This document shows, piece by piece, positions 33,013 to 54,237 of a stretch of 64,000 nucleotides of DNA (position 1 is its first letter; the number at the start of each line of letters is the position of its first letter). The notes under the pieces were generated by a model. The model made no database searches. It worked only from the letters and a program-made list of their open reading frames with translations, and was not told the origin of the DNA. This stretch comes from Streptomyces sp. NBC_01478 (GTDB taxonomy: Bacteria; Actinomycetota; Actinomycetes; Streptomycetales; Streptomycetaceae), in contig NZ_CP109444.1 of assembly GCF_036227225.1 (NCBI RefSeq), positions 124,001 to 188,000 on the forward strand, in the 5' to 3' direction. Position numbers and translations under genes: made by a program.

Positions 33013-33298
33013 CCGCGCCACCGTACCGGGAGCGTCATGCACGCTCACCAGACAGGTGTCCATCGGGTGCGCCCTGCGTGCGCGCATCGAAAATCTCCAG
33101 CTCAACAGCCGGTCCGCAACCCATACGCATCTATCGGGAGCCGGTCGTCGGCGACATCGCGATGTCGCCCATAACGGCCTGTGCCATGTGAGCAGGCGTG
33201 CGGCTGCCAGTGGCAGCATCCGCGCGAAGGGGGATTCGGCACCTGCTGACGGTGCGCCTGCGCGCGAACGGCAGCTAACTAGAGCTTTGATCTTGTTC

Positions 33299-35482
33299 AT
33301 GTACAAACGTCTGATTCGGGCTCTAGCCATCCTGATCGTCGTTTTCACCACGGTTCTCGCGGCATTGCCAACCGACACGGCCGCACAGCAGACCTGCAAG
33401 GCCGCTGATGGTCACCGGCTGGCGGGCTCGCTGGACCGGGCGCAGGAGCTGTACGAGTCGGTAACAACCGACGGCGACCAGAGCTGCGCCGTGGAGGGTC
33501 TGCGGCTCGTGGCAAAGGCGCGTCAGGAGGCAGCGGAGCTCGTCACTGCCGGGCAGCTGGCCATCCGTTCCGGGAATCTCGGCGAGGCTGCGGACAAGTT
33601 CCGTCAAGCCCTGGGTCTCGATGCAGGCAGTGCTGCGGCGGCTGCAGGTATCGCGCGAGTGGCGGACCTGAAGAGCCGCCCGCTGCCGACGGCGGTATCG
33701 AACGGGAATCGCTTCTATACGGACTGGGTGCTGCCGGTAGGGCGTCTTGCTGTGCTGGCCGCGATCGGGTTGCTGGTCCTCTACGCCCTGAGCGGCGTGT
33801 GTTCGCGCGTGCTGGTGAAAGTGGATGCGGTCGCGTGGACGGCCGGCGTTCGACGTGCCGCTGGCTCGCTGGGTTTGGTTCTGTTGATCGCGGCATCGGT
33901 GATGACGCCGCTGTTTGCCATGTTCAACCCTTTCCGGCCCACCTGGACGCAGTGCTGGATCGGCGCAGTGGTGCTTCTCGTGGTCGGCGTTGTTGCGGTA
34001 GGTCTGGTATTCGCGGGTGCGCGCAGCACGGCGTGGGAGCACTGGCGGGCTCTGCTGCTTGCCCTGGGCGTTGTGACGGCAGCCGGGTGTGTTCTGGGCT
34101 GGACGGCCTGCGTGGGCGCCTACGACGTGCGGCTGATGCTTGTGCATATCGCTCTCGTCGCGGTCGGTGTGCTTCTAACCGCCGCTGCACTTGGTCAGAA
34201 TCTCCGTCTCCAGGTCGAGGTGCAGCAGGCGGACGGGGAGGTGAACGCCGCGTCCTCCGACTACCTGCTCGCCCGGATGAAAGACCTTGGCACGGAGGCC
34301 CCGGCCCTGCACCAAGCCACGTCCGCACCGGGCAGCCGCACGCCGCTGAGCCAGATCCCTGTCGAGGAGCTCAGCGTCCTGCCCGCGGGGAAAGTCGTGG
34401 GGGCGTTGTCCCGCCTGTTCTTCGCCCTCAGACCTGATCTCACCTGGCGTGCCAGGGTCACTCTCGTGGACGACAACCGGGCCTCGACCGCGTTGTCCCG
34501 CAACGGGCAACACGCTGCGAGTGCAGTGTTCAGCCGGGCAGACCTGAAACTCCCCGCAGATTCCGACTCGGATCGCGCCAGGGCGCAGATGCTCACCGGC
34601 GCCGCCGCCTTCATCCTGGTGCACCTCAGCGCGGTGCACCAAGAGCTCGAAGACGGCCTGTACGGGGCCCGCCAGTGGAAGAGCGTCGCCCTTCAGGTGA
34701 TCGCGAAGAGCAGATCGCTGCTCGCCGACGACGAAACCCGCGTTGCCACGCGTGTCCAGCTCCTTGCCAAGGCCGTCGACGAGGACCCCGACAACGAACT
34801 GGCCCGCTTTGAGTACCTGTGGGCCAACTACGATCAACAGCCCGCCGCAGAAACAGACTTCGAAGCGTTCACCCGGGACATCGACCAGCAATACACCCGT
34901 TCCAAGCTCTGCAAAGTCTCCGACAACGAAGAGGGGTGGATGCCGCTGAAGATCCGGGTGCTCTACAGCAGCGCGACCCAGTTGCTCAACGCTTACATCA
35001 CAGCAATTGAAGGAGGCACCCCAGCCACACAGGCCGCCTCGATGCTGACCAGCGCGCGCAAATCCGCGACAAAACTCAGCCGTTTGTGCGACACCGCCAT
35101 CACCTCTTGGAAACGCAAAGAACTATGCCGCCAGCAAGCAGCGATGCACCCTTACGCTCTCAACCTCGTGGACTGCCTCGATGCGCTGTCAGACGATGTC
35201 AAGCCGAGGGCGAAGGCAGGACAGCACCCCCATGACGATCTGTCCGCCTCTCCGCGGCTGGCCTACGACCACGCCTGCCTACACGTGTTCCTCGCCAAAC
35301 GGCAGGACCTCGAAGAACACGACCGCAGCCAGCAGCGGAACTACGCGCTTGAGGACCTCCGACGCGCCCTCGTCACCGACGCCGACAGAGAGAACGCACA
35401 AACCGACCCCTGCTTCACCACCCTCCGTTCCGACCGGCACTTCCAGGAACTAGTCGGTCCACTACAAACGAACAGAAGCTGA
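33299..35482 (+). CDS. multi-pass membrane protein with N-terminal TPR-like part
   Basis: A 727-aa protein. It opens with a signal peptide or anchor (MYKRLIRALAILIVVFTTVL, then ALPTDTAAQQ). A TPR-like soluble segment follows (AIRSGNLGEAADKFRQALGL). Then come four to five membrane helices around residues 145-300 (LAVLAAIGLLVLYALSGVCS, IGAVVLLVVGVVAVGLVFAG). The C-terminal 400 residues are helical and repeat-like (LQVIAKSRSLLADDETRVAT). It may be a scaffold or sensor at the membrane; no family recognised. ATG 33299 is preferred because the signal peptide begins there, though the ribosome site is weak. The next small gene starts 3 bp after the stop. Confidence 0.7.
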   Translation: MYKRLIRALAILIVVFTTVLAALPTDTAAQQTCKAADGHRLAGSLDRAQELYESVTTDGDQSCAVEGLRLVAKARQEAAELVTAGQLAIRSGNLGEAADKFRQALGLDAGSAAAAAGIARVADLKSRPLPTAVSNGNRFYTDWVLPVGRLAVLAAIGLLVLYALSGVCSRVLVKVDAVAWTAGVRRAAGSLGLVLLIAASVMTPLFAMFNPFRPTWTQCWIGAVVLLVVGVVAVGLVFAGARSTAWEHWRALLLALGVVTAAGCVLGWTACVGAYDVRLMLVHIALVAVGVLLTAAALGQNLRLQVEVQQADGEVNAASSDYLLARMKDLGTEAPALHQATSAPGSRTPLSQIPVEELSVLPAGKVVGALSRLFFALRPDLTWRARVTLVDDNRASTALSRNGQHAASAVFSRADLKLPADSDSDRARAQMLTGAAAFILVHLSAVHQELEDGLYGARQWKSVALQVIAKSRSLLADDETRVATRVQLLAKAVDEDPDNELARFEYLWANYDQQPAAETDFEAFTRDIDQQYTRSKLCKVSDNEEGWMPLKIRVLYSSATQLLNAYITAIEGGTPATQAASMLTSARKSATKLSRLCDTAITSWKRKELCRQQAAMHPYALNLVDCLDALSDDVKPRAKAGQHPHDDLSASPRLAYDHACLHVFLAKRQDLEEHDRSQQRNYALEDLRRALVTDADRENAQTDPCFTTLRSDRHFQELVGPLQTNRS

Positions 35483-35848: not shown

Positions 35849-35862
35849 GGGAAGTGCCCGTC

Positions 35863-36636
35863 TCACAGGTCTTCATCGGGCGGGAGGTGGAGGTCGGACG
35901 GGTCGAATGTGGCCAGGGCTTCGCGTGCGATAGCGCGGGTGAAAGCGTCGAGGGGCTGGCCCCGTTCGGTAAGGATTTCCTGGATGGCGCTGGTGAGTTT
36001 GGCCCAGTCGCGGAAGTTGCCGCGACAGGCCGCGTCGTCGAGCCACAGCAGGTCCTCCTCACCGACCTTGCTCCACACCGGGTGGTAGGTGGGCATGTGC
36101 TGGACGACTTCGGTGGGATGCAGCGGTGAGAAGCGCGGCCACTGGGTGACGCGTGAGGCGAGGGCCGCCCGGCGTCGGAGGTGCCTGCGGGTGTCTTCGG
36201 CGCCGACAAAGATGATGGTCGGGCGGTTGTCGTCGGTGTCCCAGAGGGGACGTACCCACTCGAGCGCGTCAGTGGTGAGCCCTTGAGTCTCGTCGAAGAC
36301 GAGGACGTAGGGGCGTTCGGCCAAGGCTGCGCGGATGCGTGGGGTGAGGCTGCGCGTGGTGTCCGGGATGTCGAGGGCCGCGGCGACGGCTTTCTGAATG
36401 TCGCCGAGCGGACAGTGGCGGTGGAACTGGAAGAACAGGGTGTTGTCAGAGGCCAGGTCACGCAGGCAGGTGCGGACGGTGAGTGTTTTACCCAGTCCGA
36501 CGCCGCCGTGGATGCAGAGCATGGCACGGAGCTTGATGGCGGACTGGAGCTGTTTCTGGGTGCGCAGCACGGTGCGGGTGGGCACGAGGCGGGCGTTGGG
36601 CAGGTCGAGGTAGTGGCCGTCACTGCTGGCGTTCAC
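35863..36636 (-). CDS. AAA+ ATPase of the TnsC/TniB type
   Basis: A 257-aa protein. Walker A is CIHGGVGLGKTLT (44-51), Walker B is YVLVFDETQG (Asp115-Glu116) and the sensor 1 strand is PTIIFVGAED. Length and motifs fit the short TniB/TnsC ATPases of Tn5053-like and type V-K CRISPR-associated transposons, which form filaments on target DNA and activate the transposase. ExeA/IstB-like ATPases are the nearest alternative. The GTG start overlaps the stop of the transposase gene by 4 bp (GTGA), so the pair is coupled. It is the last gene of the CRISPR-Cas operon. No TnsD or TniQ partner was seen. Confidence 0.85.
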   Translation of the reverse strand: MNASSDGHYLDLPNARLVPTRTVLRTQKQLQSAIKLRAMLCIHGGVGLGKTLTVRTCLRDLASDNTLFFQFHRHCPLGDIQKAVAAALDIPDTTRSLTPRIRAALAERPYVLVFDETQGLTTDALEWVRPLWDTDDNRPTIIFVGAEDTRRHLRRRAALASRVTQWPRFSPLHPTEVVQHMPTYHPVWSKVGEEDLLWLDDAACRGNFRDWAKLTSAIQEILTERGQPLDAFTRAIAREALATFDPSDLHLPPDEDL

Positions 36637-38240
36637 GACTGGTCTTCCTGTTGCGGTGGCTGGGGGCTGAGAGTGGGCGGGGTGGTGAGCCAGGAGCTGG
36701 TGGGGGCGGGCAGGTCGTCGTCGGTGGCCGGCGGGGGTTGCGGGCGTTCGGTGTGGGTCCAGGAGCCGGTGGGTTCGGGGAGGTTTTCGGGGGTGGCGGC
36801 GTGCGGGTCGCGGGGGTCACGCAGTCTCTGGCGGGCTTGTTCGGTGGTGAGGGTGGTGAGGGGCTGCGGCGGGGCCGGTGTGGCGGTGGCCGCGAAGCGT
36901 TCGCGGACGATCTGAGGGCGTCTTTCCAGGGCTTCTCTGAGGCGGGCGGCGTCGGCCGCGTTGTCCTCTTTGACGCGCTTGAGTAGGTGAGAGCTGGCTG
37001 CGTTGGTCCAGCGGGCGGTGCCGTGGCGGTGGTCGGTGTCGGCGTCGTAGACCTCGACGGTGTCGTAGCGGCCGGGCAGGTGGCGCAGGCGCACACAGTT
37101 GCCGATGAGGTCGCGCATCCAGGTTTCGAGGTAGACGCGGCCGTTCCAGTCGATGCCGGTGCCGGTGATGGTGAAGGTACGGCTGACGAGGGGAAGGGAG
37201 CGGTTGAGGGCGCCGGGGGGCAGGTCGTGGATGACGGTGCGGTCGGCCTGCCAGGCTTGCAGGGGGGTTCGGTTGCCGAGGCTGCGAATGCGGTGCTCGT
37301 GGTTCCAGCGGTGAATGAAGTCGCGGGTGCGGGTGGTGAATTCCTCGAAGGTCAGCAGGTCTTCGAGGGGCGGGGGTTTGGGTTTGGCTGCGGGGTCGGG
37401 GTCGGGGCAGTGGGTGTAGCCGGGCATACCGCGGAAGTGCATGTCTTTGAAGGCCGCGTTGAGGGATTCGACGTAGGGCTTGAGGTCGGGTCGGCGGGGC
37501 GGCAGTTCCACGCGGCGTACGGCGAGGGCGCCCATGGTCTGGGCGACGGCTTTGCTGAGGAAGTCGGCGCCGCGGTCAACGCGGACGAGTTTGGGGATTC
37601 CGCCGAAGGGTCCGTGCGGGCCGCCGCGCTGCAGGGCGCTGTGGATGGCGACGATGATGGCTTGGCTGCTGGGGGTGTGGGGGGTGATGGCCCAGCCGCA
37701 GATGCCGGAGTTGGAGCAGTTGACGAAGAGGGTCAGCCAGGGTTTGCGGGCAGTGCCGGCGACGTTGACCCAGACGTCGGCTTCCTTGTGGTCGGCTTCC
37801 CAGGCGTCGTTGCGGCGGCCGCGTTCGCGGTGGGAGCCGTGCAGGTCGTAGCGTCGGCGGGCTTTTTCACCGGCGCGCAGGCCGGCGAGGAAGCTGGGCG
37901 GGTAGGTGCGGGTGACGGCGCAGTAGAAAGCGGAGTAGCTCAGCGGCATGGCGCCGTCGTCCTGCAGGGCGCTGTGGGCGGCGGCGATGCTGCCGCACCA
38001 CCGGATCAGCTCGTCTTCCATGCGCGGGGTCACTTCGGCGGCGTCACGCTGTTTGCGCTGGTAGTGGCCGTTGTTGTCGCGGGCGCGCTGCATCCAGCGT
38101 TGCACGCTCTTCGGGGTGCGGCCGTGGGCGGCGGCCACGGTTTTCACGTCGTCGGGGGTGAGGGTGCCGGCGGCTTCGAGGGCGAGGAGGTGGGTGACGG
38201 AGGCGGCGCGTTCCTCGTCGGCGGGGCGCTGTGCGGGCAT
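36633..38240 (-). CDS. DDE transposase of the TnsB/TniA (Mu-like) type
   Basis: A 535-aa protein. An N-terminal HTH (TLTPDDVKTVAAAHGRTPKS, residues 27-46) is followed by a helical DNA-binding part. The RNase H-like core has catalytic Asp150 (EADHKEADVWVN), Asp222 (LVRVDRGADFLS) and Glu258 (KPYVESLNAAF). The last two are separated by exactly 35 residues, the D-x35-E spacing of retroviral-type integrases. A Mu-like beta-barrel (TFTITGTGIDWNGRVYLE) and a disordered Pro-rich tail follow. All catalytic residues are present, so it may be active. ATG 38240 lies 14 bp after the cas6e stop, leaving no space for a transposon end between the two. Confidence 0.9.
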   Translation of the reverse strand: MPAQRPADEERAASVTHLLALEAAGTLTPDDVKTVAAAHGRTPKSVQRWMQRARDNNGHYQRKQRDAAEVTPRMEDELIRWCGSIAAAHSALQDDGAMPLSYSAFYCAVTRTYPPSFLAGLRAGEKARRRYDLHGSHRERGRRNDAWEADHKEADVWVNVAGTARKPWLTLFVNCSNSGICGWAITPHTPSSQAIIVAIHSALQRGGPHGPFGGIPKLVRVDRGADFLSKAVAQTMGALAVRRVELPPRRPDLKPYVESLNAAFKDMHFRGMPGYTHCPDPDPAAKPKPPPLEDLLTFEEFTTRTRDFIHRWNHEHRIRSLGNRTPLQAWQADRTVIHDLPPGALNRSLPLVSRTFTITGTGIDWNGRVYLETWMRDLIGNCVRLRHLPGRYDTVEVYDADTDHRHGTARWTNAASSHLLKRVKEDNAADAARLREALERRPQIVRERFAATATPAPPQPLTTLTTEQARQRLRDPRDPHAATPENLPEPTGSWTHTERPQPPPATDDDLPAPTSSWLTTPPTLSPQPPQQEDQS

Positions 38241-38254
38241 GGGCGGTCCGTGGG

Positions 38255-38905
38255 TCAGGCGGGGGCGAGGCTGAGCAGGCCGGCGCCGTAGGACTTGGCG
38301 CGGCCGATGCCGTTGAGCAGTGCGTCGGTGAGGGCGGCCGGGTCGGTGATGCGGGCGGTTCCGTCGAACTGGAGGAGACGGTGGACGGGGCCGGGCCGGC
38401 CGCGGCGGGGACGGCGGAAGGGCTTGGGTTCCATGGTGGTGGCGTGCAGGTGCAGGCCGGCCTCCATGGCGCGGCGGTGCCACCAGTCGAGGGCGGCTGT
38501 GTCGTCGAGGGCGAGGACGCGGCCGTGTTTGGGCAGGGGTTTCTCGCCGGGGCCGGGCCGGCGGCGGCTGCGGGTGGAGGGGTTGGCGGTGATGCGGTAG
38601 CGGACGGGGCGGCCCGGGGTGAGGGCGCTGAGCACGGGGGTGAAGTCGCGGGCCTCGGCGCTGCCATAGTGGTCGGGCAGGCCGGTGAGGTCGGGCGGGA
38701 TGCAGCTCTGCACCAGCAGGAGGGGCTGGTGGTCGTCGCGTTCGAGGCGGAAGAGCGCGCCGGCCCTCTGGCGGGGGTGGGGGCCGAGGTCGTCGGGCAT
38801 CAGCCGCATGACGGTGCGGTGCAGGGCGGTGTAGTCGGCCAGGTCGCGGCGGACCGTGGGGTGGGCGAGGTTGAGGCGGACGCGGGTCAGGGTGACGGTG
38901 GGCAC
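38255..38905 (-). CDS. cas6e: type I-E CRISPR pre-crRNA endoribonuclease Cas6e
   Basis: A 216-aa protein of normal size. Cas6e features are His29 in DYTALHRTVMRLMPDDLG, an RxxGALFRLE strand, and the C-terminal Gly-rich RNA-binding loop NGIGRAKSYGAGLLSLAP. It cuts the repeat hairpin and stays bound to the crRNA 3' end. Start is GTG 38905, six bases after GGAG, and it overlaps cas5e by 19 bp. Its expected substrate is the CCCTACGCGTGGGGG stem of the arrays at 47-54 kb. Confidence 0.95.
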   Translation of the reverse strand: MPTVTLTRVRLNLAHPTVRRDLADYTALHRTVMRLMPDDLGPHPRQRAGALFRLERDDHQPLLLVQSCIPPDLTGLPDHYGSAEARDFTPVLSALTPGRPVRYRITANPSTRSRRRPGPGEKPLPKHGRVLALDDTAALDWWHRRAMEAGLHLHATTMEPKPFRRPRRGRPGPVHRLLQFDGTARITDPAALTDALLNGIGRAKSYGAGLLSLAPA

Positions 38906-39738
38906 GGCTGCTCCAGTCGGTGGCGGTAGGCGGTCAGAGCGGGCAGAGGGTCGGCTCCGGCGTAGAGGGCGGCGGGCAGGCGTTCGGTGGTGGTCCACAG
39001 CGAGCGGACGGTGTACCGGCGGTGGTGGGGGGTGAAGTCGACGGGGTTGTCGGCGAGTTCGCGGTGGGCGGTGGGGTTGGGGGGTGGGGTGTCATGCCAG
39101 AAGGTGACCGGGATGCGGTCTGCTTCCGGGTCGGGTGGGGTGTGCAGGGTGAGGGGGGCGTGGTGACGCAGGTGGGTGAGCGGGTCGCTCAGGGGTGGGG
39201 TGAGGACGAGGGGTTCGTCGGGGACGCAGGCGCGGCGGCCCAGGTAGAGGGCGAAGCAGGGGTGTTCGAGAGTGTGGGCGAGGTAGGCGATGAGGGCGGC
39301 GGGGCCCTGGACGGCGACGGTGAAGCAGGCGTCGGTGAGGTAGTGGCGGTGGGAGACGTGGGTGGTTTTGCCTTCCTGGCGCCGTTCTCCCTTGCTGGTG
39401 CGCAGTTGTTCGTGGCGGGAACGGCCGCTGCCGGTGGTGTGGAAGTCGGTGTAGAGGGTGCTGGGGGTGTCGACGCGGATGGTGAACGCCAGGTCGGTGT
39501 AGCGGGGGCGGCCCGGCAGGTCGAGGGGGTCGAGGGCCTGGTGGCGGGGGCGGCCTGCGGCGGCGGCGAACATGCCGATGAGGGCGGAGCGGGTGGGGTG
39601 GGGCTGGGTGTCGCGGCGGGTGAAGGCGGTGTCGGTGCCGTAGGCACTCAGGACGCCGGCCAGGCGCAGGAGGAGCCCGCCCGGTGCGGTGCGGACGGCA
39701 TCGGTGTTGGTGTCGGCGGGGGTGGCGGGCATGGTCAT
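38887..39738 (-). CDS. cas5: type I-E Cascade subunit Cas5e
   Basis: A 283-aa RAMP protein. LLLRLAGVLSAYGTDTAFTR near the N-terminus, then TQPHPTRSALIGMFAAAAGR, is the standard Cas5e opening; YLTDACFTVAVQGPAALIAY and LYLGRRACVPDEPLVL follow. It caps the 5' handle of the crRNA in Cascade. ATG 39738 overlaps the cas7e stop (ATGA); a second ATG is at 39732. The C-terminal third is longer and more Pro-rich than in E. coli CasD. Confidence 0.95.
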   Translation of the reverse strand: MTMPATPADTNTDAVRTAPGGLLLRLAGVLSAYGTDTAFTRRDTQPHPTRSALIGMFAAAAGRPRHQALDPLDLPGRPRYTDLAFTIRVDTPSTLYTDFHTTGSGRSRHEQLRTSKGERRQEGKTTHVSHRHYLTDACFTVAVQGPAALIAYLAHTLEHPCFALYLGRRACVPDEPLVLTPPLSDPLTHLRHHAPLTLHTPPDPEADRIPVTFWHDTPPPNPTAHRELADNPVDFTPHHRRYTVRSLWTTTERLPAALYAGADPLPALTAYRHRLEQPCPPSP

Positions 39739-40916
39739 GCCGCCGTGTAGGAGCGGGGTGCGGTGGCGGGGGCGGCGGCCGCGGCGGTGACGGCGTCGAC
39801 GAGGTCGTCGTAGCTGGCGTGGCGCGGGCCGAGGTGTTCGAGCGGTTCGGGGGCCTGGGTGACATGGCCGTGGGCGATGCGGTGACGGGTACCGGTCAGC
39901 TGGGTGATGTTGCCGGCGTGCTGGGACAGGATGCTGCGGGTGGGGGCCAGGTGGCCGCCCTGCCTGTCGGCTTTGACGGGCTGGTGGAAGGCGGAGGCGT
40001 AGGAGACGGGGCGGCGGTCGCGGACGACGTAGTGGACGGTGTCGGGCAGGGTGTGCGGGGCGGTGGAGTTCTTCTTGGCCTGCGGCAGGGTGGAGATGAA
40101 CATGTCCGTGAACGCGCCGAGCAGGGCGATGGCCCGGGATGCGTCTCCGTCGAGATTGGCGGTCAGTTCGGTGAGGTTGACACTGACGTAGCGGTAGAAG
40201 ACCCCGGCGCTGAGGTAGGCGGTGTCCAGGTGGGCGCTGGTGGCCTCGCCGGGCTCGGCCCAGTCCTCGTAGGCGGTGAAGAAGTCGGGCTGCGGGTCGC
40301 TGGTGTGGGTGGTGAAGGCCCAGGCCATCTGGACGGCGCCGTCGACGTGGGCGTCACCGAGGCCGGCGAGGAAGCGGCCGAAGAGGCTGATGCTGGCGGT
40401 GCGTGCGCACAGCAGGCTCACCACGTCGCCGGAGGGCAGGTAGGCCCCGGTTTTCGCGGTGGACTTGGCTTCCTTGGCCATGCCCTTTTCCAGGGCGGTG
40501 CGGTGACGGGCGCACAGAGCGGCGAGGTCGTCGAGGATGGTGTCGTCGGGGACGTAGAGCATGGCCAGGGTGCGGCCCTCGGCGCCCGGGTCGGTGGCCA
40601 GGCCTTCGGCGGTGGCACTGCGGGGGACCTGGGCGGCGGCGAAGCGGGCGAGGTCCTCGGGCCAGCCGGCCGCGCGGAGGGCGGCGGCCAGGCGGGGAGG
40701 CAGCCGGCGGGTGCGGGCGGCGGGTTCGCTCAGGAGGGTCTCCAGCGCGTGCCGGACTGCGCGCTTGGCGCACTGGCTGGAGATGGCCGCGCGCTGGGTG
40801 TTGCCGATCATGAGGGTCTTGGGGTCGTTGTGCTCGCCGCGGTTGAGGCAGGAGGCGGGAATGTCCTGGAGGACGTGCAGGTCGATGTAGCGGGCCAGGT
40901 GCGGGTTGGTTGTCAT
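39735..40916 (-). CDS. cas7e: type I-E Cascade backbone subunit Cas7e
   Basis: A 393-aa protein. The opening YIDLHVLQDIPASCLNRGEH, then ISSQCAKRAVRHALE, is typical of Cas7e, as are SISLFGRFLAGLGDAHVDGA and TYRY-like strands (AGVFYRYVSVNLTELTANLD). Six copies wrap the crRNA. The ATG overlaps the cas11 stop by 4 bp. The SQxxKRAxR motif is intact. Confidence 0.96.
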   Translation of the reverse strand: MTTNPHLARYIDLHVLQDIPASCLNRGEHNDPKTLMIGNTQRAAISSQCAKRAVRHALETLLSEPAARTRRLPPRLAAALRAAGWPEDLARFAAAQVPRSATAEGLATDPGAEGRTLAMLYVPDDTILDDLAALCARHRTALEKGMAKEAKSTAKTGAYLPSGDVVSLLCARTASISLFGRFLAGLGDAHVDGAVQMAWAFTTHTSDPQPDFFTAYEDWAEPGEATSAHLDTAYLSAGVFYRYVSVNLTELTANLDGDASRAIALLGAFTDMFISTLPQAKKNSTAPHTLPDTVHYVVRDRRPVSYASAFHQPVKADRQGGHLAPTRSILSQHAGNITQLTGTRHRIAHGHVTQAPEPLEHLGPRHASYDDLVDAVTAAAAAPATAPRSYTAA

Positions 40917-41503
40917 GTGCTGCTCGTCTCTTGTGTGCCGGCCGAAGAGGCCGGGGGCGGAGTGGGTGTGGGGGTGAAGAGGTAGAAGTCGTCCTGCCAG
41001 CGGGTGGCGACGCTGGGACGGTTGCTGCTCCAGTAGGTGAGGTCGGCCAGCAGGACGGCGAAGTCCGGCGGATGGCCGCTGCCCAGCAGTTGGCGGGTCA
41101 GGCCGGGCAGGCGCCGGTGGAGCAGGTCCTCGGACAGGCGGATGAGGACCTGCAGTTCCCTCTCGAAGGGGCCGTCGGTCCGCCCGTGTGCGGCGCGGGC
41201 CAGGGTGGCGCCGAGGCTGGGGCGCGACCGCCAGGCGCGGGGATGGTCGGGGTCTGGGGCGGGGGTGGTGGGGTGGCGGTCGGGGCGTTCGTGGGCGATG
41301 AGGCCGGCGAGGGTGTAGTGGGCGCGCCGGTCGGGGTGGTTGCGGGTGAGGCGGCTGAGGAAGGGGTGCAGGCGCTGGCAGTCGTCGACGGGACGGCCGC
41401 GGCCCGACCCGAGAGCGGCTCTGCTCTCCGGGGCGGTGCACAGGTCACGGACGGCGGCGACGTAGGCGTCGCAGTGGGCGCGGTAGTCGTCACGGCTGGG
41501 CAC
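40913..41503 (-). CDS. cse2: type I-E Cascade small subunit Cas11 (Cse2)
   Basis: A 196-aa helical protein. AALGSGRGRPVDDCQRLHPF matches the Cse2 LRRG-to-P..HPFL region, and LLHRRLPGLTRQLLGSGHPP with DFAVLLADLTYW matches its C-terminus. Two copies form the belly of Cascade. Start is GTG 41503, overlapping cas8e by 14 bp, with a weak ribosome site. The final 20 residues are Pro/Thr-rich. Confidence 0.9.
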   Translation of the reverse strand: MPSRDDYRAHCDAYVAAVRDLCTAPESRAALGSGRGRPVDDCQRLHPFLSRLTRNHPDRRAHYTLAGLIAHERPDRHPTTPAPDPDHPRAWRSRPSLGATLARAAHGRTDGPFERELQVLIRLSEDLLHRRLPGLTRQLLGSGHPPDFAVLLADLTYWSSNRPSVATRWQDDFYLFTPTPTPPPASSAGTQETSST

Positions 41504-43085
41504 GGCGGGCTGCTTTCTTGCGGGCGGTGGCGGCAGGAGCCGCGGCGGCCATGAGGGCGCGGACGGCGCGGGCCAGGGCGGGGCCGGCCATCCGGTGGCG
41601 GGCCAGGTCGGGGCGGACGGTCTGGCGCAGGGCGGCCACGGCGGTGCGGGCGAAGGCCGGATAGGGGTCGCTCGCCTCGTCCGGGTCCTGGTGGACGAGG
41701 TCCCAGAACACCTGCTCGGCGTGCGGCCAGTAATCGGCCAGGGACTCCCTCGCCCACCGGCTGGTGGGCCGGCCCCGGCGCGGGGCGGGCGGTGCGCCGC
41801 CGGCGGCGGCCGGGGTGGAGGTCTCGTTCCAGGCGGTGTTGGCGCAGGAGCGCAGGAGGGCGCCCAGGTGTTCGGCGGCCTGGTGGCAGGAGGCGATCCG
41901 GCGGGCGGCAACAGGGTCGTGTTCTTCGGCCTGGTTCCAGATGGACGGGGTCAGGGCGGTGTACCAGATCCGGTTGGTGGTGCGGCCGTCCTGGTCGAAG
42001 CCGCACACCCGCACCCGCAGCCGCCCCCGTACGGGGGCGGGCAGGTCGTTGAGGGTGTCGAAGACGGCGGGGCGGCGCTGGGCGGAGCTCTCGTCGCCGG
42101 CGAGCAGCAGGGCGTCCAGGTCGCGCCACAGGGCACGGTCGGCATCGGCGCGGCGGGGCCGGTCGCGGTCCTCGGCCTTGGCCTGCGTGTGGGTGTCGAT
42201 GATGAGGTAGGGGTCGGTAGCCGGGTAGGCGGGGTGCTGGGTCGCCCAGGTGAGGTAGCAGTCGGTGGCGGCGCTGCCGTCGTCGTTGGGGATCAGGAGC
42301 ACGGCGTGCCGGGAGCGGCCGGTGAGCAGGCGTTTGGGCCAGGTCACCGGGGGCGGGGCGTGGACGGGGTCGGGTGGTGTGGATTCCTGCCAGGGACAGG
42401 TGTCCGCGGAGTGCTGGGGGGTGCCGCGGTAGGGGAACTGGTGCATCAGGAGTGTCTCCAGGAGGGTGGCGCCCTGAGGGTGGAAGGAGAGGGTGGAGCG
42501 CAGGGGGCCGGCGGTGGCCCGGCCGCTGGTGTGGGGGCCGGCGCTGCGGGTGGTGCAGCGGCCGGCGGCACCGTAGAAGTGCTGGATCAGCAGGTGCCAG
42601 AAGGCCTCGTCGCTGGACAGAGGCCACGGGGCGGTGTCGGTGTGGACACTGAGCCATTGAAGGTTGTTGCCGGCGGGCCGGCCGAAGACGAGTTTGTTGA
42701 TGCCGGAGGTCTTGGTGCACTGCTCGGTCAGACGCGGGTCCTGCAGGAAGGGGCGGCTCGGGTGGTAGAGGTCCCACGTGGAGGCGTCGCAGTAGTCGTG
42801 GACGTCCTGGGCTTTCAGTCCGCGGCCGCTGCTCAGCAGGTCGCCTCGCCGCTCGTGCCACTCCTCCAGTGACAGGTCCGGGTCGTCCAGGCCGGTGAGT
42901 TCGGCGGTGATGGCAGTCAGCATCCGCAGCAGCGCGGAATGCGCGGGCGGCAGCGGCAGCGCCAGGTCCTCGATGCGGTGTGCCTGGATGAGTACCTCGC
43001 GCAGCCCGAACACCTCGTGCTGCTCGTCCAGGCGCACCGGGATGCAGGGGCGCAGGTCAACGGGGTAGGCCGGCAGGGAGGGCAT
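41490..43085 (-). CDS. cas8e: type I-E Cascade large subunit Cas8e (Cse1)
   Basis: A 531-aa protein. It starts with the Cse1-like PCIPVRLDEQHEVFGLREVL and contains WHERRGDLLSSGRGLKAQDV, YLHPSRPF-like FYxP segment (WDLYHPSRPFLQDPRL), and KTSGINKLVFGRPAGNN. It recognises the PAM and recruits Cas3. ATG 43085 follows AAGGAGAC. The 488-bp gap upstream separates it from cas3 and probably holds a promoter for the Cascade-transposition part of the locus. Confidence 0.93.
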   Translation of the reverse strand: MPSLPAYPVDLRPCIPVRLDEQHEVFGLREVLIQAHRIEDLALPLPPAHSALLRMLTAITAELTGLDDPDLSLEEWHERRGDLLSSGRGLKAQDVHDYCDASTWDLYHPSRPFLQDPRLTEQCTKTSGINKLVFGRPAGNNLQWLSVHTDTAPWPLSSDEAFWHLLIQHFYGAAGRCTTRSAGPHTSGRATAGPLRSTLSFHPQGATLLETLLMHQFPYRGTPQHSADTCPWQESTPPDPVHAPPPVTWPKRLLTGRSRHAVLLIPNDDGSAATDCYLTWATQHPAYPATDPYLIIDTHTQAKAEDRDRPRRADADRALWRDLDALLLAGDESSAQRRPAVFDTLNDLPAPVRGRLRVRVCGFDQDGRTTNRIWYTALTPSIWNQAEEHDPVAARRIASCHQAAEHLGALLRSCANTAWNETSTPAAAGGAPPAPRRGRPTSRWARESLADYWPHAEQVFWDLVHQDPDEASDPYPAFARTAVAALRQTVRPDLARHRMAGPALARAVRALMAAAAPAATARKKAARRAQP

Positions 43086-43573
43086 AGGGCGGTCTCCTTC
43101 CCGTGGCACCGCGGACAAGGCAGCGGTACGCGGCGCGGGAGGATTCGGAGTGGACAAGACGTTCGGGCCGTGCGCAGAGCAGGCGGAACACCATGCGGCG
43201 GGAACCGGTGCAGGCGGTGCCTGCCTCCGGGTGTCTTTCACTGAAGCACGCATGTCCAAGGCCGAGGCGGTGATGAGGGATTCAGCCCGTAGCTCCGCCC
43301 CGGCGGTGCATAATGCCCGCGCGCGAGAACGGCCTGGTCACAGCGTCGGCGGCGTGCCGGTCATTGCTGTGGAGCCTCCCCCGGCGCGTACACCGGCGCG
43401 TGCGCCGCCCTTCCCGCAACGGGCCGGGATAGGTTCCGCCGGCGACGAGAATCCGGCTTCGCCTCGCACGGCTGTGCCTGAGTGGGGTGGGCAGCAACTG
43501 CCCGTGTCGCAGGGCTCGAAGACAGTTCTCGGTGTTCCCTGCACCGTGTGGTGCTCCAGTCCTGGCCTTCCGG
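43086..43573. other. intergenic region between cas3 and cas8e
   Basis: 488 bases with no convincing gene. E. coli has a promoter at the same place in its type I-E locus, and a separate promoter for Cascade is plausible here too. I could not identify -35/-10 boxes with confidence; GGCATTATGC near 43310 on the minus strand is AT-rich for this DNA. Confidence 0.4.
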
Positions 43574-46429
43574 TCAGGACCGGGCCTCGTCATGGACGAG
43601 GCCGAGGTGGGCATCGAGGTGCAGCAGGTGGGTGCCGAAGCGGACAGGGCCCGGGACGGCGGCGTCGTGGATCAGCAGGGTCAGGTCCGCCAGCAGGGCA
43701 TGCTGGCGCCAGGATTCGGGCGGACGTGCGGGGGCGTCGGCGAGCCAGTCCTCGGGGACGTCCAGGGTGCGTTCGAGGATCGCGCGGATGGCGGGCGCCG
43801 GCAGCCGGGGGCTGTCGGGCAGGGGCTGGGTGCCGGCCGGGTCCAGGTGGAGCGATCCGTCCGGCTGGCGGTAGCAGGCCAGCAGGCGCCGCGGGCGGGA
43901 GCCTTCCCGGGTGGGGGCCGCACCGGCGGTGGTGGGATGACGGTAGAGATCAGCCAGGGAGCCGGTGCGGGCGGGCGGCGGCACGGCTTGTTCCTGCCCG
44001 AGGTGTTCATAGCGCTGCAGGTCGGCCTGGTAGGCGGTGTGCAGGGCGGCCAGTGTGTCGGGGATGCGGGTGCTGGCCGTCTCCAGCAGGCCGGGGAGCT
44101 GGGCGGGCAGGTCGAGCGGGCGGGCGGGCGTCTGCGCCAGCAGGTGTGCGGCTGCGTGCAGTTCGAAGGCCGGCTCTCCCCTGCCCCACCAGTGCGGGAG
44201 GTGTGTGCGGCCGTCGGCAACTGGGGCCAGTACCGTCAGACGCGGCCCGCGCTCCAGGATCCAGCCCGGCCTGCGGCGGTCTGTGCCGTCTTCCTGCCAC
44301 AGCCGTTCGAAGCGCCACAGCCGGCCCGCCCGCTGCAGCAGCCGGGACAGCGAGGCCAGGTCACTGATCATGAGGTCGCAGTCGATGTCCAGGCTCATGT
44401 CGAGCAGGCTGGTGGTGACCACGGCCAGCCGTTCGGGGCGTGTCCCGGCGGGGCCGAGCCGGGCGCGTACCCGCCGGGTGATGGCTTCGCGCTGGTGGCC
44501 GGGGAATCGGGCATGAAGCAGGACCAGGTTCTCCCGGGGCCTGGGCCAGGGCATGCGGGCGAGGTGGCGGAAGGTGTCCTGTGCGTCGGCGACGGTGGCA
44601 CAGACCACGATCATGCAGCCGCCGTGTGCCAGGACGAGACTGCTCTCCTCGGCGATGCGGTGCAGCCGTTCCCCGTCGGCGACGGTCCGTTCCACGGCGC
44701 CGAGCCGGGCCGCGAGCACGGGCTGGTGCTGCACCGTCAGTCGGCGGCGGGTCATCGTGACGTGGGCGGCGGCCTGGGCGGGGTCGATACGGGTGACGGC
44801 GCCGTCGCGGGCCGCGGCAAACAGCCAGCCCGGGTAGGGCACGTCCACGTCCAGGCCGTCCAGCTGGCCGGGCTTCAGTCCGGCGCCGGCCAGATAGGCG
44901 TGCACCAGTTCCCGGGCCACGGGCGGCGCCAGTGTGGCGGACAGCAGCACGACCGGTGTACCCAGCGCTGCCAGCCAGTGCAGGAGCCGTGCCGTGAGGC
45001 GCCGCATGTAGGGGGTGGCGACGTGGACTTCGTCCAGGATGACGGTGCGGCCGGACAGGGCCAGCATCCGCAGCGCGCTGTAGCGCACCGGCAGCACGGC
45101 CATCAGCGCCTGGTCGATGGTGGCGACGGTGAACTGCGCCAGCAGCGCTCTGTCCCAGCCGCGCAGAAAGGGGTCCGGGACCGTGACGTGTTGTCCGGGA
45201 CGGCCTGCGCCGTCCTGTGATGCGTCGAAGTACTCGTCCAGGGTCAGCTGGCCGCCGGCTTCCAGCAGCCGTTTGTCGTGATAGGCGGCACTGGTCCAGG
45301 GGTGGCTGTGCACCAGTGTCACCGGGGCCCGCCGGGGACGGTGCGCGGCCACGTAGGCCACGAGGTCGTCGTAGGCGGCATCCGCGATGGCGGTGGTGGG
45401 CTGCAGGACGGCCATCCCGCGGGTGCCGCAGTGGCGGTTGAAGGTCCGGGCGGCCTCCCGGCCTGTGATCGTCTTGCCGGCGCCGGTGGAGTCGGTGACC
45501 ACCAGGATGCCCGCTCCCTGCTCGCGTACCACCGGCTCGAGTTGGGCGATGACCGAGGCCTGCAGCCGGTTGGGGCCGGTGGTGTGCGGATGGGCCTGGG
45601 TGAAGGGCACCTCGGGCAGAGTGATCCGCTCCAGCCCGGACGCGGTCACCACCTCGGCGGCCCACCCCTCTTCGGCGTCCGCGTCCGCCGGGTGACGGGT
45701 ATTGATCCAGTGCGTCAGTGCGCACGAGGCCGGCGCCATCGCGCGCCGCATCCATACATGAGGCTGGCTCACCAGCCGGTCCGCAACCATGATCAGCCCC
45801 GTCAGCAGCACCGCGGCCTCGGTGGAAATCCTGGGCGGCGGCGTGCCGGCACCCGTCAGATAGCGGACCTGGGCGAGGTAGCGGCGGCGCAGGTCCTGCC
45901 ACAACGGGCCGCCGAGATCCAGACGCACCCGCTCGGGACGGGCCGCTCCAAGGAGGTCGCACTGCAGATAGCGGCCGTGATGGGCGCCGAGAATCTGGGC
46001 CGCGCGCACCGCCGGGCTGGTGTTGCCTCCCAGCCGGTATCCGAGATCCGCCAGGAGTTCAACGGCCGTGTGCATGGAGGCACGTTCGTGCCGTATCAGC
46101 CTCCACGGCCCCGCATCCGCACGCAGTTCATCGCTGACCTGTGCCCATGCTCCCGGCTCGCACATCTGGAAGCGGCCCGCCTTGCCGATGTCGTGTGCGC
46201 CGGCCAGGAACATGGCCTCGCACCGCGCCTGGGCCGGCTCCAGTCCCAGTCCTCGGCAGATCACCCGGCGCTGCGCGGGCGTCAGGTACCGGTCCCACAA
46301 CTCCCCCATCACCGCAGCCGCATCCAGCTGATGGAACAGCAATGAGTAGGCCAGGCCGTAGAGCAGGCTGTACTTGCCCCACAGTGACAGGTCCAGCCCG
46401 CCGGGCCGGCTGTCCTCGACCACGCCCAT
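43574..46429 (-). CDS. cas3: type I CRISPR helicase-nuclease Cas3
   Basis: A 951-aa protein with HD nuclease and SF2 helicase. The HD residues are present: His33, the HD pair in LAGAHDIGKAG (H79, D80), His114/120 and the ILGAHHGRYL pair (H150, H151). Helicase motif I is TDSTGAGKT (316-320), motif II ILDEVH (466-469), motif III VLLSATLAPP, and motif VI LLQRAGRLWR. Nothing suggests it is dead, although the strand before motif VI reads SLLDMSLDID where EQSLDLD is usual. ATG 46429 follows GGGGAGGGG. Known type I CRISPR-guided transposons lack Cas3, so an intact copy is informative. Confidence 0.94.
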   Translation of the reverse strand: MGVVEDSRPGGLDLSLWGKYSLLYGLAYSLLFHQLDAAAVMGELWDRYLTPAQRRVICRGLGLEPAQARCEAMFLAGAHDIGKAGRFQMCEPGAWAQVSDELRADAGPWRLIRHERASMHTAVELLADLGYRLGGNTSPAVRAAQILGAHHGRYLQCDLLGAARPERVRLDLGGPLWQDLRRRYLAQVRYLTGAGTPPPRISTEAAVLLTGLIMVADRLVSQPHVWMRRAMAPASCALTHWINTRHPADADAEEGWAAEVVTASGLERITLPEVPFTQAHPHTTGPNRLQASVIAQLEPVVREQGAGILVVTDSTGAGKTITGREAARTFNRHCGTRGMAVLQPTTAIADAAYDDLVAYVAAHRPRRAPVTLVHSHPWTSAAYHDKRLLEAGGQLTLDEYFDASQDGAGRPGQHVTVPDPFLRGWDRALLAQFTVATIDQALMAVLPVRYSALRMLALSGRTVILDEVHVATPYMRRLTARLLHWLAALGTPVVLLSATLAPPVARELVHAYLAGAGLKPGQLDGLDVDVPYPGWLFAAARDGAVTRIDPAQAAAHVTMTRRRLTVQHQPVLAARLGAVERTVADGERLHRIAEESSLVLAHGGCMIVVCATVADAQDTFRHLARMPWPRPRENLVLLHARFPGHQREAITRRVRARLGPAGTRPERLAVVTTSLLDMSLDIDCDLMISDLASLSRLLQRAGRLWRFERLWQEDGTDRRRPGWILERGPRLTVLAPVADGRTHLPHWWGRGEPAFELHAAAHLLAQTPARPLDLPAQLPGLLETASTRIPDTLAALHTAYQADLQRYEHLGQEQAVPPPARTGSLADLYRHPTTAGAAPTREGSRPRRLLACYRQPDGSLHLDPAGTQPLPDSPRLPAPAIRAILERTLDVPEDWLADAPARPPESWRQHALLADLTLLIHDAAVPGPVRFGTHLLHLDAHLGLVHDEARS

Positions 46430-47284: not shown

Positions 47285-47395
47285 CTCAACCTGCCCTGTA
47301 AAAGCAGCAGTTCAGGCTTCCATGGAAAGGCTCCTGCCATGAGAAAAGAACAGCGAAATCCTTCCGGACAGCTCCAGAGCCGCAGGCCAGCGAGG
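47285..47395 (+). promoter_or_regulatory. degenerate CRISPR leader of array A
   Basis: The sequence just before the first repeat of array A aligns with the leaders of the other arrays at about 60-65%: GAACAGCGAAATCCTTC corresponds to AACAGTAAAATCYTCTC and GCAGGCCAGCGAGG to GCAGGTCAGCGAGG. It appears to be an old, decayed leader copy. Confidence 0.5.
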
Positions 47396-48091
47396 CGCGT
47401 TCCCACCCGTGAGGGTCAGTCGGACTCCGACCCGCTGCTCGTGCTCACGGCAGCCCGCGTTCCCCACCCGTGGGGGTCTGTCGCTCCGCATCGATCTCGC
47501 GTGGATCTTGGCAGTGTCCCGTCCCTACGCGCGTAGGGGTCAGTCCACCGGAACGATCAGCGTGGCCAGCTTCCCCACGTCCAATCCCTACGCGTGGGGG
47601 TCTGTCGCCGAAGGCATAGCCGTCGTCGATCTGGCGGAAGTGCCGTCCCTACATGTGGGGGTCTGTCCGACAGGTGCTCCGTCACCTGTTCGCTGCCGTA
47701 GTCCCGTCCCCACGCGCGAGGGGGGGAGCCCACGCCCGCCGCCCCAACCTCGAAAGCGAGCAGGTCCTCTCCCTTCCCTACACGTGGGGGTCCATCGGGC
47801 ACCGTGGATGGCCTCAATCGGGCAGTGGAACCCAGTCCCCGGTGGGGTCCCACCGGTGGGCGACCTGGTTGGAGTTCTTGCAGCCGAGGTCCAATCCCTA
47901 AGAGTGGGGGTCCGTCCCGAGGAGTTCCGTCCGGTCGTAGCTGGTGAATGTCCAGTCCCCACGCGTGGGGGTCAGTCCTGATCGACGACTATCAGCGCTC
48001 CCTCGACGGTGTCCTCTCCCTACCCGTGGGGGTCAGTCCTCCGCACCGCGCTCGCTGTTCTGCCGCAGGAGGTCCAGTCCCTACAGCCCGG
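47396..48091 (+). CRISPR. CRISPR array A, about 12 degenerate repeats
   Basis: Repeats recur every 60-62 bases (near 47396, 47457, 47518, 47579, 47640, 47701, 47768, 47827, 47888, 47950, 48010 and a half repeat at 48072). They match the consensus GTCCMGTCCCTACGCGTG with GGGGTCAGTC, but most have several changes, and repeats 6-8 carry small indels. Spacers are about 33 bases. It is the most decayed array; its last half repeat runs directly into the leader of array B. Confidence 0.9.
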
Positions 48092-48214
48092 CCATCTCGT
48101 GCACATGCAGGCTCTGACCCACAACACCTGCACGAGATCGAGGAAACCCCCCACACCCGCACAAATAACAGTAAAATCTTCTCTGCGCGGTCATGGCCGT
48201 GCAGGTCAGTAAGG
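48092..48214 (+). promoter_or_regulatory. CRISPR leader of array B
   Basis: It shares with leaders C and D the blocks ACAGTAAAATCTTCTCTGC and CCGTGCAGGTCAGTAAGG. It also contains, like leader C, GCAGGCTCTGACCCACA followed by CCTGCACGAG, which can pair with the preceding CTCGTGCA. Position and conservation make it the promoter/adaptation leader of the array to the right. Confidence 0.75.
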
Positions 48215-48665
48215 GGCCAGTCCCTACGCGTGGGGGTCAGTCCTCGGCGGCGCCGGCCGGATAGTGGCCACGTCTGTCCAGTCCCTACGCGTGGGGGTCA
48301 GTCGCTGGCCGCTCTACACGGCGCCTGCCCCTTTCCGTCCAGTCCCTACGCGTGGGGGTCAGTCCGCGCCGGGATGGTCGAAGCGGGAGCCACGCCAGTC
48401 CAGTCCCTACGCGTGGGGGTCAATCCCGACGAGCTCGTGATCCACTTTCCTGGAGGCAATCCCGTCCCTATGCGTAGGGGTCAGCCCTGGTCAACCGCTT
48501 CGCGGGGCGTATCGGCGGTGTCCAGTCCCTACGCGCGTGGGGGTCAGCCCGAGCTGCTTAGCGCTGTCGATGCGCTGTTGAAGTCCCGTCCCTACGCGTG
48601 GGGGTCTGCTTGGGCTACTTGCCGCCGTCACCGAGCTCAGCCAGTCCCCACGCGTGGGCAGGGCT
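48215..48665 (+). CRISPR. CRISPR array B, 8 repeats
   Basis: The first four repeats are almost identical (28 bases, stem CCCTACGCGTGGGGG). Later ones drift, repeat 6 has a 2-base insertion, and the eighth is clearly degenerate. Spacers are about 33 bases, as usual for type I-E. Fresh repeats near the leader and worn repeats far from it fix the direction of growth as left to right. Confidence 0.96.
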
Positions 48666-48732
48666 TCGATCTCCCGAGCCGTGTTGGCTCCAAGCACAAA
48701 ACTCCAGCTCAACAGCTCCTCCGCTATCAAGA

Positions 48733-48772
48733 CTTACACGAAAGCGTCCTGGCATTTTGCGCGCAAGTGTCC
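48733..48772 (+). repeat. pair of transposase-binding-like 17-bp boxes after array B
   Basis: CTTACACGAAAGCGTCC (48733-48749) and TTTGCGCGCAAGTGTCC (48756-48772) are variants of one 17-bp box, starts 23 bp apart. The surrounding 90 bases, from about 48680, align with the sequence after array D (54190-54280), so both arrays end in copies of the same segment. The boxes here are more worn than those near 54.3 kb. Confidence 0.6.
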
Positions 48773-49249: not shown

Positions 49250-49376
49250 TGGCCACCACGTGCTCGTGCAGGCTCTGACCCACAGCACCTGCACGATTTC
49301 GAAGAAGAACTCATCTCACCCGCATAAAAACAGTAAAATCCTCTCTGCACGGTCACAGTCGTGCAGGTCAGCGAGG
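49250..49376 (+). promoter_or_regulatory. CRISPR leader of array C
   Basis: It contains a perfect inverted repeat TCGTGCAGG (49264-49272) / CCTGCACGA (49288-49296) with a 15-base loop, then the conserved AACAGTAAAATCCTCTCTGC block, then a third TCGTGCAGG directly before the first repeat. Three copies of one 9-mer suggest a protein-binding leader element. Confidence 0.75.
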
Positions 49377-50269
49377 GTCCCGTCCCTACAGGTGGGGGTC
49401 AGTCGCCTGCTCATCCACCACGAGGTCGCCTTCGCCGGTCCCGTCCCTACAGGTGGGGGTCAGTCCTTGGCCGTGGCCGCCGCGACGGGCGTGATGCAGT
49501 CCCGTCCCTACAGTTGGGGGTCAGTCCGCCGCGTACGCGAGGAGGCGGGCGCCTTCGCCGGTCCCGTCCCTACAGGTGGGGGTCAGTCATGAGACCAGGC
49601 CGGGCCGACCGCTGCCGAGGAGTCTCATCCCCACACGTGGGGTCCGTCCGAGACCCCCAAGGTCGAACCGACCGCGTGATCGTCCAGTCCCTATGCGTGG
49701 AGGTCCATCTCCGGGCCTGGTGAAGTGGGAGGGCACCCAGAGGTCCAATCCCTACGCATGAGGGTCCATCTAGCGAACCGCTCGCACAAGCCCTCACCAT
49801 CGTGTCCAATACCTACGCGTAGAGGCCCGCCCTCTACACCCAAGTCGCCCAGCGTCTTGAGTTCGTCCAGTCCCTACGCGCGTGGGGGTCATTCGTTCGT
49901 CTCCACCATGGGCGAGTCGAACTGCAAGCCCAGTCCCTACACGTTGGGGTCAGTCGTTCAAGGATGCCGAGAGCGCGGGACTGGTGACGTCCCGTCCCTA
50001 CGCGTGGGGGTCAGTCCATTCCGTTCGCCGACGAGGTCTGCAACGTCGGGTCCTGTCTCTACGCGTGGGGGTCAGTCCCACTTCGACTTCGTCGCCTTGA
50101 TCGCTCTGTCGTTCAGTCCCAACACGGTGGGGGTCAGTCCGAGTGGCTGTCTGAACGCATGCCGGCGGGCATCGCCCAGTCCCCACCCATGTGGGGGCCA
50201 GTCCGCCGTGAGCGCGGCCGGATCACGTTCTTCGCTGTCCATCCAGTTCCTACGTGCGAGGGTCTATCC
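49377..50269 (+). CRISPR. CRISPR array C, 15 repeats
   Basis: Repeats start near 49377, 49438, 49499, 49560, 49621, 49681, 49742, 49802, 49866, 49928, 49989, 50050, 50112, 50173 and 50239. The first four share a private variant (CCCTACAGGTGGGGG). Repeats 5-8 are worn, 11-12 match the consensus, and the last is degenerate. Spacers are 32-34 bases. No repeat of a whole spacer was noticed, but spacers 1 and 3 share the last ten bases. Confidence 0.96.
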
Positions 50270-50475: not shown

Positions 50476-50488
50476 TGACAGCGAGGGG

Positions 50489-53398: not shown

Positions 53399-54158
53399 GT
53401 CCAGTCCCTACACATGGGGGTCAGTCCGTGATCAGGCCCTTTTCGGAGTTGTCCGCATTGTCCAGTCCCTACACGTGGGGGTCAGTCGATGGGAGCGGAC
53501 AGATAGACGACCGCGGCGGCGTCCCGTCCCTACGCGTGGGGGTCAGTCCACCGCGCCGCTGAACTCCCCGGCCTACCGCCGGTCCCGTCCCTACGCGTGA
53601 GGGTCAGTCGTGGGAACCGACCGAGGGCGATCGTCCCCGCGGCGTCCCGTCCCTACGCGTTGGGGTCAGTCGCACTCACGGATCGAGGAGATCGTCGACT
53701 CGCTGTCCCGTCCCCTACACGTGGAGGTCAGTCCGAGGCATCCGGCTGAAGGTCCGTGTCGATGTAGTCCCGTCCCTAAACGTGGGGGTCAGTCGGTGTG
53801 GCAGACCGCGGGGGTGATCTGGGCCTGGTCCCGTCCCCACACGTGGAGGTCAGCCCTAGCGCGAAAGTGTGCAAGGTATCTTGCGTGAGTCCCGTCCCTA
53901 CACATGGGGGTGAGCCCGGATCGGCCACGTGCTGGAAACGGTCGACGAGGTCCCATCCCTACGCGTGGGGGTCAGTCCACACCGACCGCCGTCGCCGCCC
54001 GCAACAAGTCCAGTCCCTACGTGCAGGGGTCAGTCCACGCACATCGAGCAGGAACAGCGCGACGTTCCATCCAGTCCCTGCGCGTAGGGGTCAGTCCCCC
54101 ACTCACCTGGAGCGCCAGCCGATCCAGCAATCCAGTCCCTACGCGTGAGGGCCCGTTC
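53399..54158 (+). CRISPR. CRISPR array D, 13 repeats
   Basis: Repeats start near 53399, 53460, 53521, 53582, 53643, 53704, 53766, 53827, 53888, 53949, 54009, 54070 and 54131; unit length is 61. The repeat is 28 bases with stem CCCTACRCGTGGGGG, and the base before GTCCC alternates between A and C. Arms drift mainly by C-to-T or G-to-A changes. The last repeat is truncated in its 3' half and leads into the box-containing segment. Confidence 0.96.
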
Positions 54159-54237
54159 GGACCACTTGCCGCCGTCGCCGAACTGCGTTGTTCCCGAGCA
54201 TAAAACTCCTGTTCAGCAGCTCCTCCGCCTATCAGGA

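Follow-up and report, generated by a model that had tools for sequence, protein, structure and literature searches.

Type I-E CRISPR (clustered regularly interspaced short palindromic repeats) loci in which tnsB-tnsC stand instead of cas1-cas2 were described in Streptomycetaceae by Faure et al. (2019), who, according to the available parts of PMC12231136 and PMC8730458, proposed that the pair forms an "alternative adaptation module". A 2025 classification (PMC12669027, as far as its accessible text goes) lists such loci as I-E5, a CRISPR-associated transposon (CAST) without TniQ-TnsD that is linked to telomeric transposons, citing Hsieh et al. (2025), and credits it with a possible dual function and an HD domain that is active. 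What I-E/tnsBC units are for is a matter of published dispute, between a spacer integrase and a dual-function CAST. Here we analyze one of these units in a window of 64,000 nucleotides (nt) from Streptomyces sp. NBC_01478 (NZ_CP109444.1, assembly GCF_036227225.1, forward positions 124,001–188,000), with coordinates given as positions in the window. Its CRISPR spacers match tap, tnsB and helicase genes of linear plasmids and of solitary tnsB-tnsC loci. We tentatively propose, at a probability of about one half (0.49), that this is an I-E5-type unit in which a I-E effector was joined once, at the cas1-cas2 spot, to TnsB-TnsC from telomere-associated transposons, and that it would carry out RNA-guided transposition toward linear replicons.

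The operon lies on the minus strand in the order cas8e-cas11-cas7e-cas5e-cas6e-tnsB-tnsC, with cas3 upstream (43574..46429, 951 aa, HD domain and helicase motifs; PF18019 E 3.3e-32 and PF22590 E 1.2e-29), and all eight genes are open from start to stop. NCBIfam assigns each of the five Cas proteins above its cut-off: cas8e (41490..43085; TIGR02547 E 2.4e-52), cas11, or cse2 (40913..41503; TIGR02548 E 1.1e-14), cas7e (39735..40916; TIGR01869 E 5.5e-69), cas5e (38887..39738; TIGR01868 E 2.9e-47), and cas6e (38255..38905; TIGR01907, also PF08798), the start positions of cas11 and cas6e having been re-checked. From cas8e to tnsC the successive overlaps are 14, 4, 4, 19, and 4 nt, the junction of cas6e and tnsB being a 14-nt gap. 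An earlier reading of this DNA made from its letters and open reading frames (hereafter the sequence-only reading) had given the same one-strand order, overlaps and gap, which the coordinates confirm; its inventory was incomplete in that it missed cas3 and four CRISPR arrays. The TnsB-like DDE transposase (36633..38240, 535 aa) has the triad D150-x71-D222-x35-E258, identical across 47/47 aligned sequences, and its closest solved chain is 7svw, named TnsB (E 3.4e-10). The TnsC-like AAA ATPase, the operon's last gene (35863..36636, 257 aa; AAA_22 E 3.8e-13), has Walker A GGVGLGKT and Walker B LVFDE, so that the retention of triad and Walker motifs first read from the letters holds. Cas3 carries HDIGK, STGAGKT, DEVH, SAT, and QRAGR and, judged by these motifs, is apparently intact. 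The sequence-only reading had also reported neither TnsA nor an evident TniQ. The latter part stands, as no TniQ lies beside the operon and the genome's three TniQ matches sit at 5.5 and 8.29 Mb; for the former, we saw no TnsA beside the operon by eye, and no search aimed at TnsA was made.

The same reading held that this layout matched no well-described system, a view now outdated, since the kind of operon is already classified, as the Faure et al. I-E/tnsBC variant and as the I-E5 CAST. With the former, so far as it is described in the available text, the window shares the order cas3-cas8e-cse2-cas7-cas5-cas6-tnsB-tnsC plus an array, the lack of cas1-cas2, and the lack of any ends found; it differs in that the adaptation idea is reportedly based in part on variable spacer length, whereas 23/29 spacers of window arrays 1–3 are 33 nt long. 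With I-E5 it shares the I-E effector, a Cas3 with the HD motif, the absence of an adjoining TniQ-TnsD, and a TnsB akin to transposases common at linear-replicon ends, and the accessible description shows no difference from the window unit. Tn7-like CASTs of types I-F3, I-B2, and V-K also combine TnsB-TnsC with a CRISPR effector (from the available parts of PMC12669027 and PMC11656645, and partly from general background), but they use TniQ and have lost target cleavage, whereas the window has no TniQ near the operon and an apparently intact Cas3.

To place the operon among its relatives, we sampled 199 Streptomyces genomes, 46 of which contain a TnsB relative at E ≤ 1e-40. Surroundings were inspected in 39 of these 46, the remaining seven not being examined for cas genes, and cas genes adjoin the TnsB relative in 7/39, the window's genome included. 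Together with S. coacervatus and plasmids of S. cadmiisoli and BB1-1-1, these make ten loci that share the operon order, counting G096, whose contig ends after cas5e and contains no array. The S. coacervatus locus is 82% identical to that of the window and proteins of the remaining loci are approximately 34–60% identical, and recurrence in nine other loci indicates that the gene order is not due to chance. Hence the cas6e-tnsB-tnsC synteny that the sequence-only reading suggested looking for does recur, with variable flanks, and is not unique to this genome; the further claim that this is not a simple insertion into a cas locus is likewise supported. In a tree of TnsB proteins, the ten I-E sequences fall on one side of a branch with support of 100/100, opposite 37 solitary TnsBs (the short TnsB of L085 was omitted), and in I-E relatives lacking tnsBC the two closest plasmid loci opened have cas1e-cas2e after cas6e. 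TnsB relatives are frequently found near the ends of linear replicons, and tap/tpg-like sequence occurs in the inspected flank of 17/38 solitary loci. Homology to S. coacervatus spans 35858–48426, with gaps, and ends on both sides, a rearranged patch of 67–79% identity lying some 22–27 kb off (8609–13814), while between G117 and BB1-1-1 the cassette is homologous (about 91%) as far as the stop codon of tnsC, past which what the two have in common is fragmented. The cassette is thus a conserved unit with variable flanks.

Spacers in the window arrays, all on the plus strand, identify what the guides are directed against. The spacer at 47422..47454 matches a canonical tap gene at about residue 215, with CAA on the side of the protospacer-adjacent motif (PAM), and that at 49710..49742 matches close to the 3' end of a canonical tap gene (32/33, PAM side GAA); the canonical targets are Tap by NCBIfam NF047542, at 1092–1120 bits and above cut-off, and Tpg is the next gene in the two tested. 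The spacer at 47546..47578 matches a helicase gene adjoining tap2 (32/33, GAA), that at 47797..47829 has nine matches to tnsB across solitary loci, each with AA (best 29/33), and that at 48487..48519 matches genes, one annotated HNH, 5.7–9.7 kb from the end in three plasmids, as well as BB1-1-1. A further spacer, S1 (49895..49927), matches tap2 at about residue 426 with up to 31/33 identities (GAA) and is in register with two G028 spacers. S1 matches 66 plasmid records, 43 of them across at least 80% of its length; its target is a tap-like gene whose N-terminal match to NF047542 (E ~1e-20) falls below cut-off, and in the two records opened the next gene is of tpg size. With at most two mismatches, the S1 site is present in 38/198 Streptomyces genomes, where the matches in the window's genome (G000) and in G028 are the arrays themselves. 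The guides do not match the unit's own tnsB (18/33) or the genome's own chromosomal tap-like gene (23/33). Spacers of S. coacervatus, G090, G028, and G117 likewise match tap, tnsC, or helicase genes, and likeness of spacers between loci is above chance (14 pairs versus 1–2 in shuffles, a count that takes in within-locus pairs and control-array pairs). S. coacervatus spacer 1381 matches solitary loci L048 and L046 and has no Streptomyces match among plasmids. Phage targets were considered and rejected: against 50,697 phage records the best E was 0.03 for S1 (tape measure genes) and 0.9 for the array region, and a degenerate S1 pattern gave 0 matches in viral contigs. Separately, a block of genes encoding GNAT, XRE, hypothetical, HNH or hypothetical, and DUF4262 proteins at L136 (NZ_CP134205.1 231586–251585) and L125, near an end in NBC_00445, is matched by window spacers and by spacers from S. 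cadmiisoli and G034; roughly 5 kb away from the block lies a gene matched by a G117 spacer.

We quantified this targeting against solitary tnsB-tnsC loci that were selected by TnsB alone and total 675 kb, taking as a candidate spacer the 33 nt after each called repeat (a few are not true spacers, one being leader sequence) and as a match at least 80% identity. Matches were found for 18/189 candidates, BB1-1-1 spacers being excluded as near copies of G117, compared with 0/189 reversed sequences and 1/73 controls from cas1-cas2 arrays (Fisher p 0.03). The matched sites comprise four in tap, one in tnsB, three in tnsC, and four in helicase genes, the others being counted below. AA directly precedes the match in 14/18 best hits, compared with a base rate of 1.6–2.5% of all positions across five tap genes. 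This agrees with the AAN PAM that S. avermitilis is reported to use (available text of PMC12231136). In a separate tap/tpg set, 15/209 spacers match, as does one reversed spacer, whereas none of the 73 candidates from the canonical cas1-cas2 loci L087 and L088 does so at ≥78%; this result is weaker than 18/189 because the set was partly chosen with window spacers and is to that extent circular. Taken with the matches in background sequence given below, these results show guides that aim at linear-plasmid-type DNA generally, in which tap, tnsB, and tnsC are hit repeatedly. Two patterns were set aside. The strand direction of the tap guides was dropped as evidence for transposition, and an every-sixth-base mismatch was rejected as guide design: 41/66 best-hit mismatches fall at multiples of three, and since they divide into 5 at index 0, 18 at 6, 12, 18, 24, and 30, and 18 at 3, 9, 15, 21, and 27, codon wobble explains the pattern. 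A register of guides against telomere and transposase genes may be the part that is new; our literature search found no paper on such guide targets, and Hsieh et al. (2025) may still report them.

Solitary tnsB-tnsC units (L045–L078, L152, L155) often lie within tens of kb of the ends of linear chromosomes or plasmids, and a third gene family occurs in the inspected stretch of 31/38 solitary loci, mostly directly after tnsC, and in 0/10 I-E loci (L008 and L049 are on the same plasmid, L071 and L072 are in the same genome, and some loci are cut by contig ends). As the third gene is absent from the I-E loci, we read Cascade as a replacement for a target-selecting or assisting protein, which favors RNA-guided transposition. 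In the mechanism we propose, Cascade loaded with CRISPR RNA would locate tap, tnsB, tnsC, and helicase genes on a linear replicon, whether incoming or co-resident, filling the role that the third gene would have in solitary elements. It would then recruit TnsC and TnsB, leading to insertion of element DNA at the target, and by this insertion the element would move onto, or replace, a rival element at a chromosome end. At the same time Cas3 may destroy the target, making a dual role in transposition and interference possible. The spacers would derive from integration of the Cas1-Cas2 type, in the past or in trans, and not from TnsBC. The transposition step is what we infer from gene content and guide targets. 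The more specific idea, in which the arrays would serve as a record of rivals, both telomeric transposons and linear plasmids, and TnsBC would perform CRISPR-steered telomere replacement with Cascade doing the third gene's job, is possible but decidedly less secure.

Several observations weigh against guided transposition. Unnamed sequence accounts for 6/18 matched sites, and three of the 18 matching spacers are versions of a single spacer. In 440 kb of subtelomere and plasmid sequence, used as background, we found matches to 10/189 spacers, four of which involve array copies (one of these also matching outside), leaving seven outside arrays, six of them on BB1-1-1; match density on telomeric elements is only about 1.7-fold that of background. 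All eight distinct tap protospacers are on the coding strand, where, however, about 72% of AA occurrences lie in any case (p 0.07); their direction is therefore no proof of transposition. Pfam gives no match to the third gene family and the PDB none that is meaningful, so a target-selector role is putative. In the third array compared between G117 and BB1-1-1, two leader-proximal spacers differ above two common ones. Neither a transposon end, nor a target-site duplication, nor an insertion by a protospacer was found. Comparison of the cassette with its relatives revealed no transposon end, and 14-mer repeat clusters sought as ends in nine solitary loci were absent from five and few in four, none being compelling; in these comparisons no end was found that would place the pair in an unrelated transposon with its own terminal repeats, as the sequence-only reading had allowed. 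Finally, in contrast to most CASTs, the unit has a Cas3 that looks active, and this favors cleavage.

This last point bears on interference alone, in which Cascade-Cas3 destroys linear plasmids and telomeric transposons, as defense or in competition between elements, and TnsB-TnsC either mobilize the cassette or are passengers. Across the I-E/tnsBC loci, HDxGK is retained in 8/9 Cas3 proteins and a DEAH-type box in 9/9 (G028 Cas3, in the frame read, is without HD and Walker A), and the varied plasmid and telomere gene targets, the AAN-type PAM, the lack of matches to the own copies tested, and repeat stems that by eye are conserved while loops drift are all consistent with such a role. Against this, tnsB-tnsC adjoin the cas operon (in the window, tnsB lies 14 nt past cas6e), persist across loci whose proteins, S. 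coacervatus aside, are ~34–60% identical to those of the window, with the DDE triad intact in all, and lack the third gene of solitary elements in all ten I-E loci. We consider pure interference rather unlikely. The two alternatives raised from the letters, RNA-guided transposition and a defense use of transposition proteins, accordingly both remain live, and the spacer targets bear on both.

The arrays speak to how spacers were acquired. Four arrays on the plus strand span 47394–54190: array 1 (47394..48098), with degenerate repeats and mostly 33-nt spacers; array 2 (48215..48667), whose leader (48090..48214) carries the anchor GTGCAGGTCAGTAAGGGG and is related to that of array 3; array 3 (49377..50268; leader 49251..49376); and array 4 (53399..54190; 13 repeats, leader anchor at 53386). 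No Cas1 was detected in the eight genomes and two plasmids with I-E/tnsBC loci, and the window's genome has no match to PF01867 (Cas1) or TIGR01873 (Cas2). These absences, the position of tnsB-tnsC where relatives have cas1e-cas2e, and the small number of spacers common between loci would fit a model in which TnsB-TnsC replace Cas1-Cas2 and insert new spacers. Also in keeping with it, three of the four leader-proximal repeats of array 3 share a private loop variant, TACAGG (the fourth differs by one base), as if copied at the leader end, and the difference in one of three compared G117/BB1-1-1 arrays, noted above, is leader-proximal, as new acquisition would give. In that pair, a homologue of one G117 leader-proximal spacer is present at another place in BB1-1-1, and the difference may therefore reflect rearrangement; the other two arrays keep identical leader-proximal spacers and differ in one inner unit each, and arrays lying further out have nothing in common. 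The canonical Streptomyces I-E loci, on plasmids of S. albus (L087) and NBC_00464 (L088), are informative here. They resemble the window in cas order, 33-nt spacers (67/67 in cas1-cas2 arrays), and the leader anchor (CAGG[T/C]CA..), which is present in 3/4 of their arrays and in 7/9 tnsBC loci (not in G034 and G160), but they have cas1e-cas2e where the window has tnsB-tnsC, and near-invariant repeats. This common ruler and leader argue against spacer insertion by TnsBC. Spacer length is more variable in other tnsBC loci than in the window, where repeat indels explain much of the seeming variation. Target duplications made by TnsB are short and not 28 nt, which also counts against this model, and we regard it as improbable. 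Spacer acquisition with repeat copying has nonetheless occurred, perhaps recently, in lineages in which we found no Cas1; because of the 33-nt ruler and the common leader, it was presumably of Cas1-Cas2 type, past or in trans. As a side observation, an orphan cas2e without cas1 on a plasmid (L155, NZ_CP030074.1 953670–954020) lies about 26 kb from an I-E5 locus and adjoins a helicase gene and a second, solitary tnsB-tnsC set, and another (G034:C47:33071–33265) lies a few kb from an I-E5 locus.

The NBC_01478 genome is a single contig of 12.12 Mb, and a second, inverted copy of the locus is present on the other arm, with 99.991% identity across the 33,191 bp compared. Both copies are about 160 kb from a chromosome end, as in a terminal inverted repeat. 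The right-arm tnsB (G000:C1:11962568–11964174) is split by a 1-base gap, which may be a sequencing error, and is otherwise near identical. A further alternative is decay, that is, a formerly active I-E system that lost cas1-cas2 and rides the subtelomeric repeat beside a transposase pair by chance. Thirty of the 33 window repeats are distinct (compared with 1/32 in one cas1-cas2 array and 7/21 in another), the orphan cas2e genes accompany two other I-E5 loci, and a gene remnant and a decayed tap lie nearby. Yet all eight genes are open, the motifs and DDE triad are conserved within a single TnsB group, and PAM-bearing spacers match current plasmids at up to 32/33, making a relic very improbable. 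Among neighboring features, the 99 bp between arrays 2 and 3 (48823–48921) are 83–86% identical to hypothetical genes near linear-plasmid ends and are probably a gene remnant. A tpg2-like gene (55186–55755, minus strand) is 62% identical to a plasmid copy, and the decayed tap2 upstream of it (55860–55930) loses similarity, by eye, where the S1 protospacer would start. Facing the operon, the plus-strand gene at 33056–35482 encodes an 808-aa protein that weakly matches TPR end-of-group.

For the published dispute, the guide targets offer an answer that is concrete and can be tested, in the form of named protospacers with PAMs in tap, tnsB, tnsC, and helicase genes. They suggest that the unit serves to invade rival elements at chromosome ends or to fight them. 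If guided transposition onto linear-replicon ends is true, CRISPR would be a means of mutual displacement among such elements, and a path from Cascade to TnsC that is free of TniQ would interest genome engineering.

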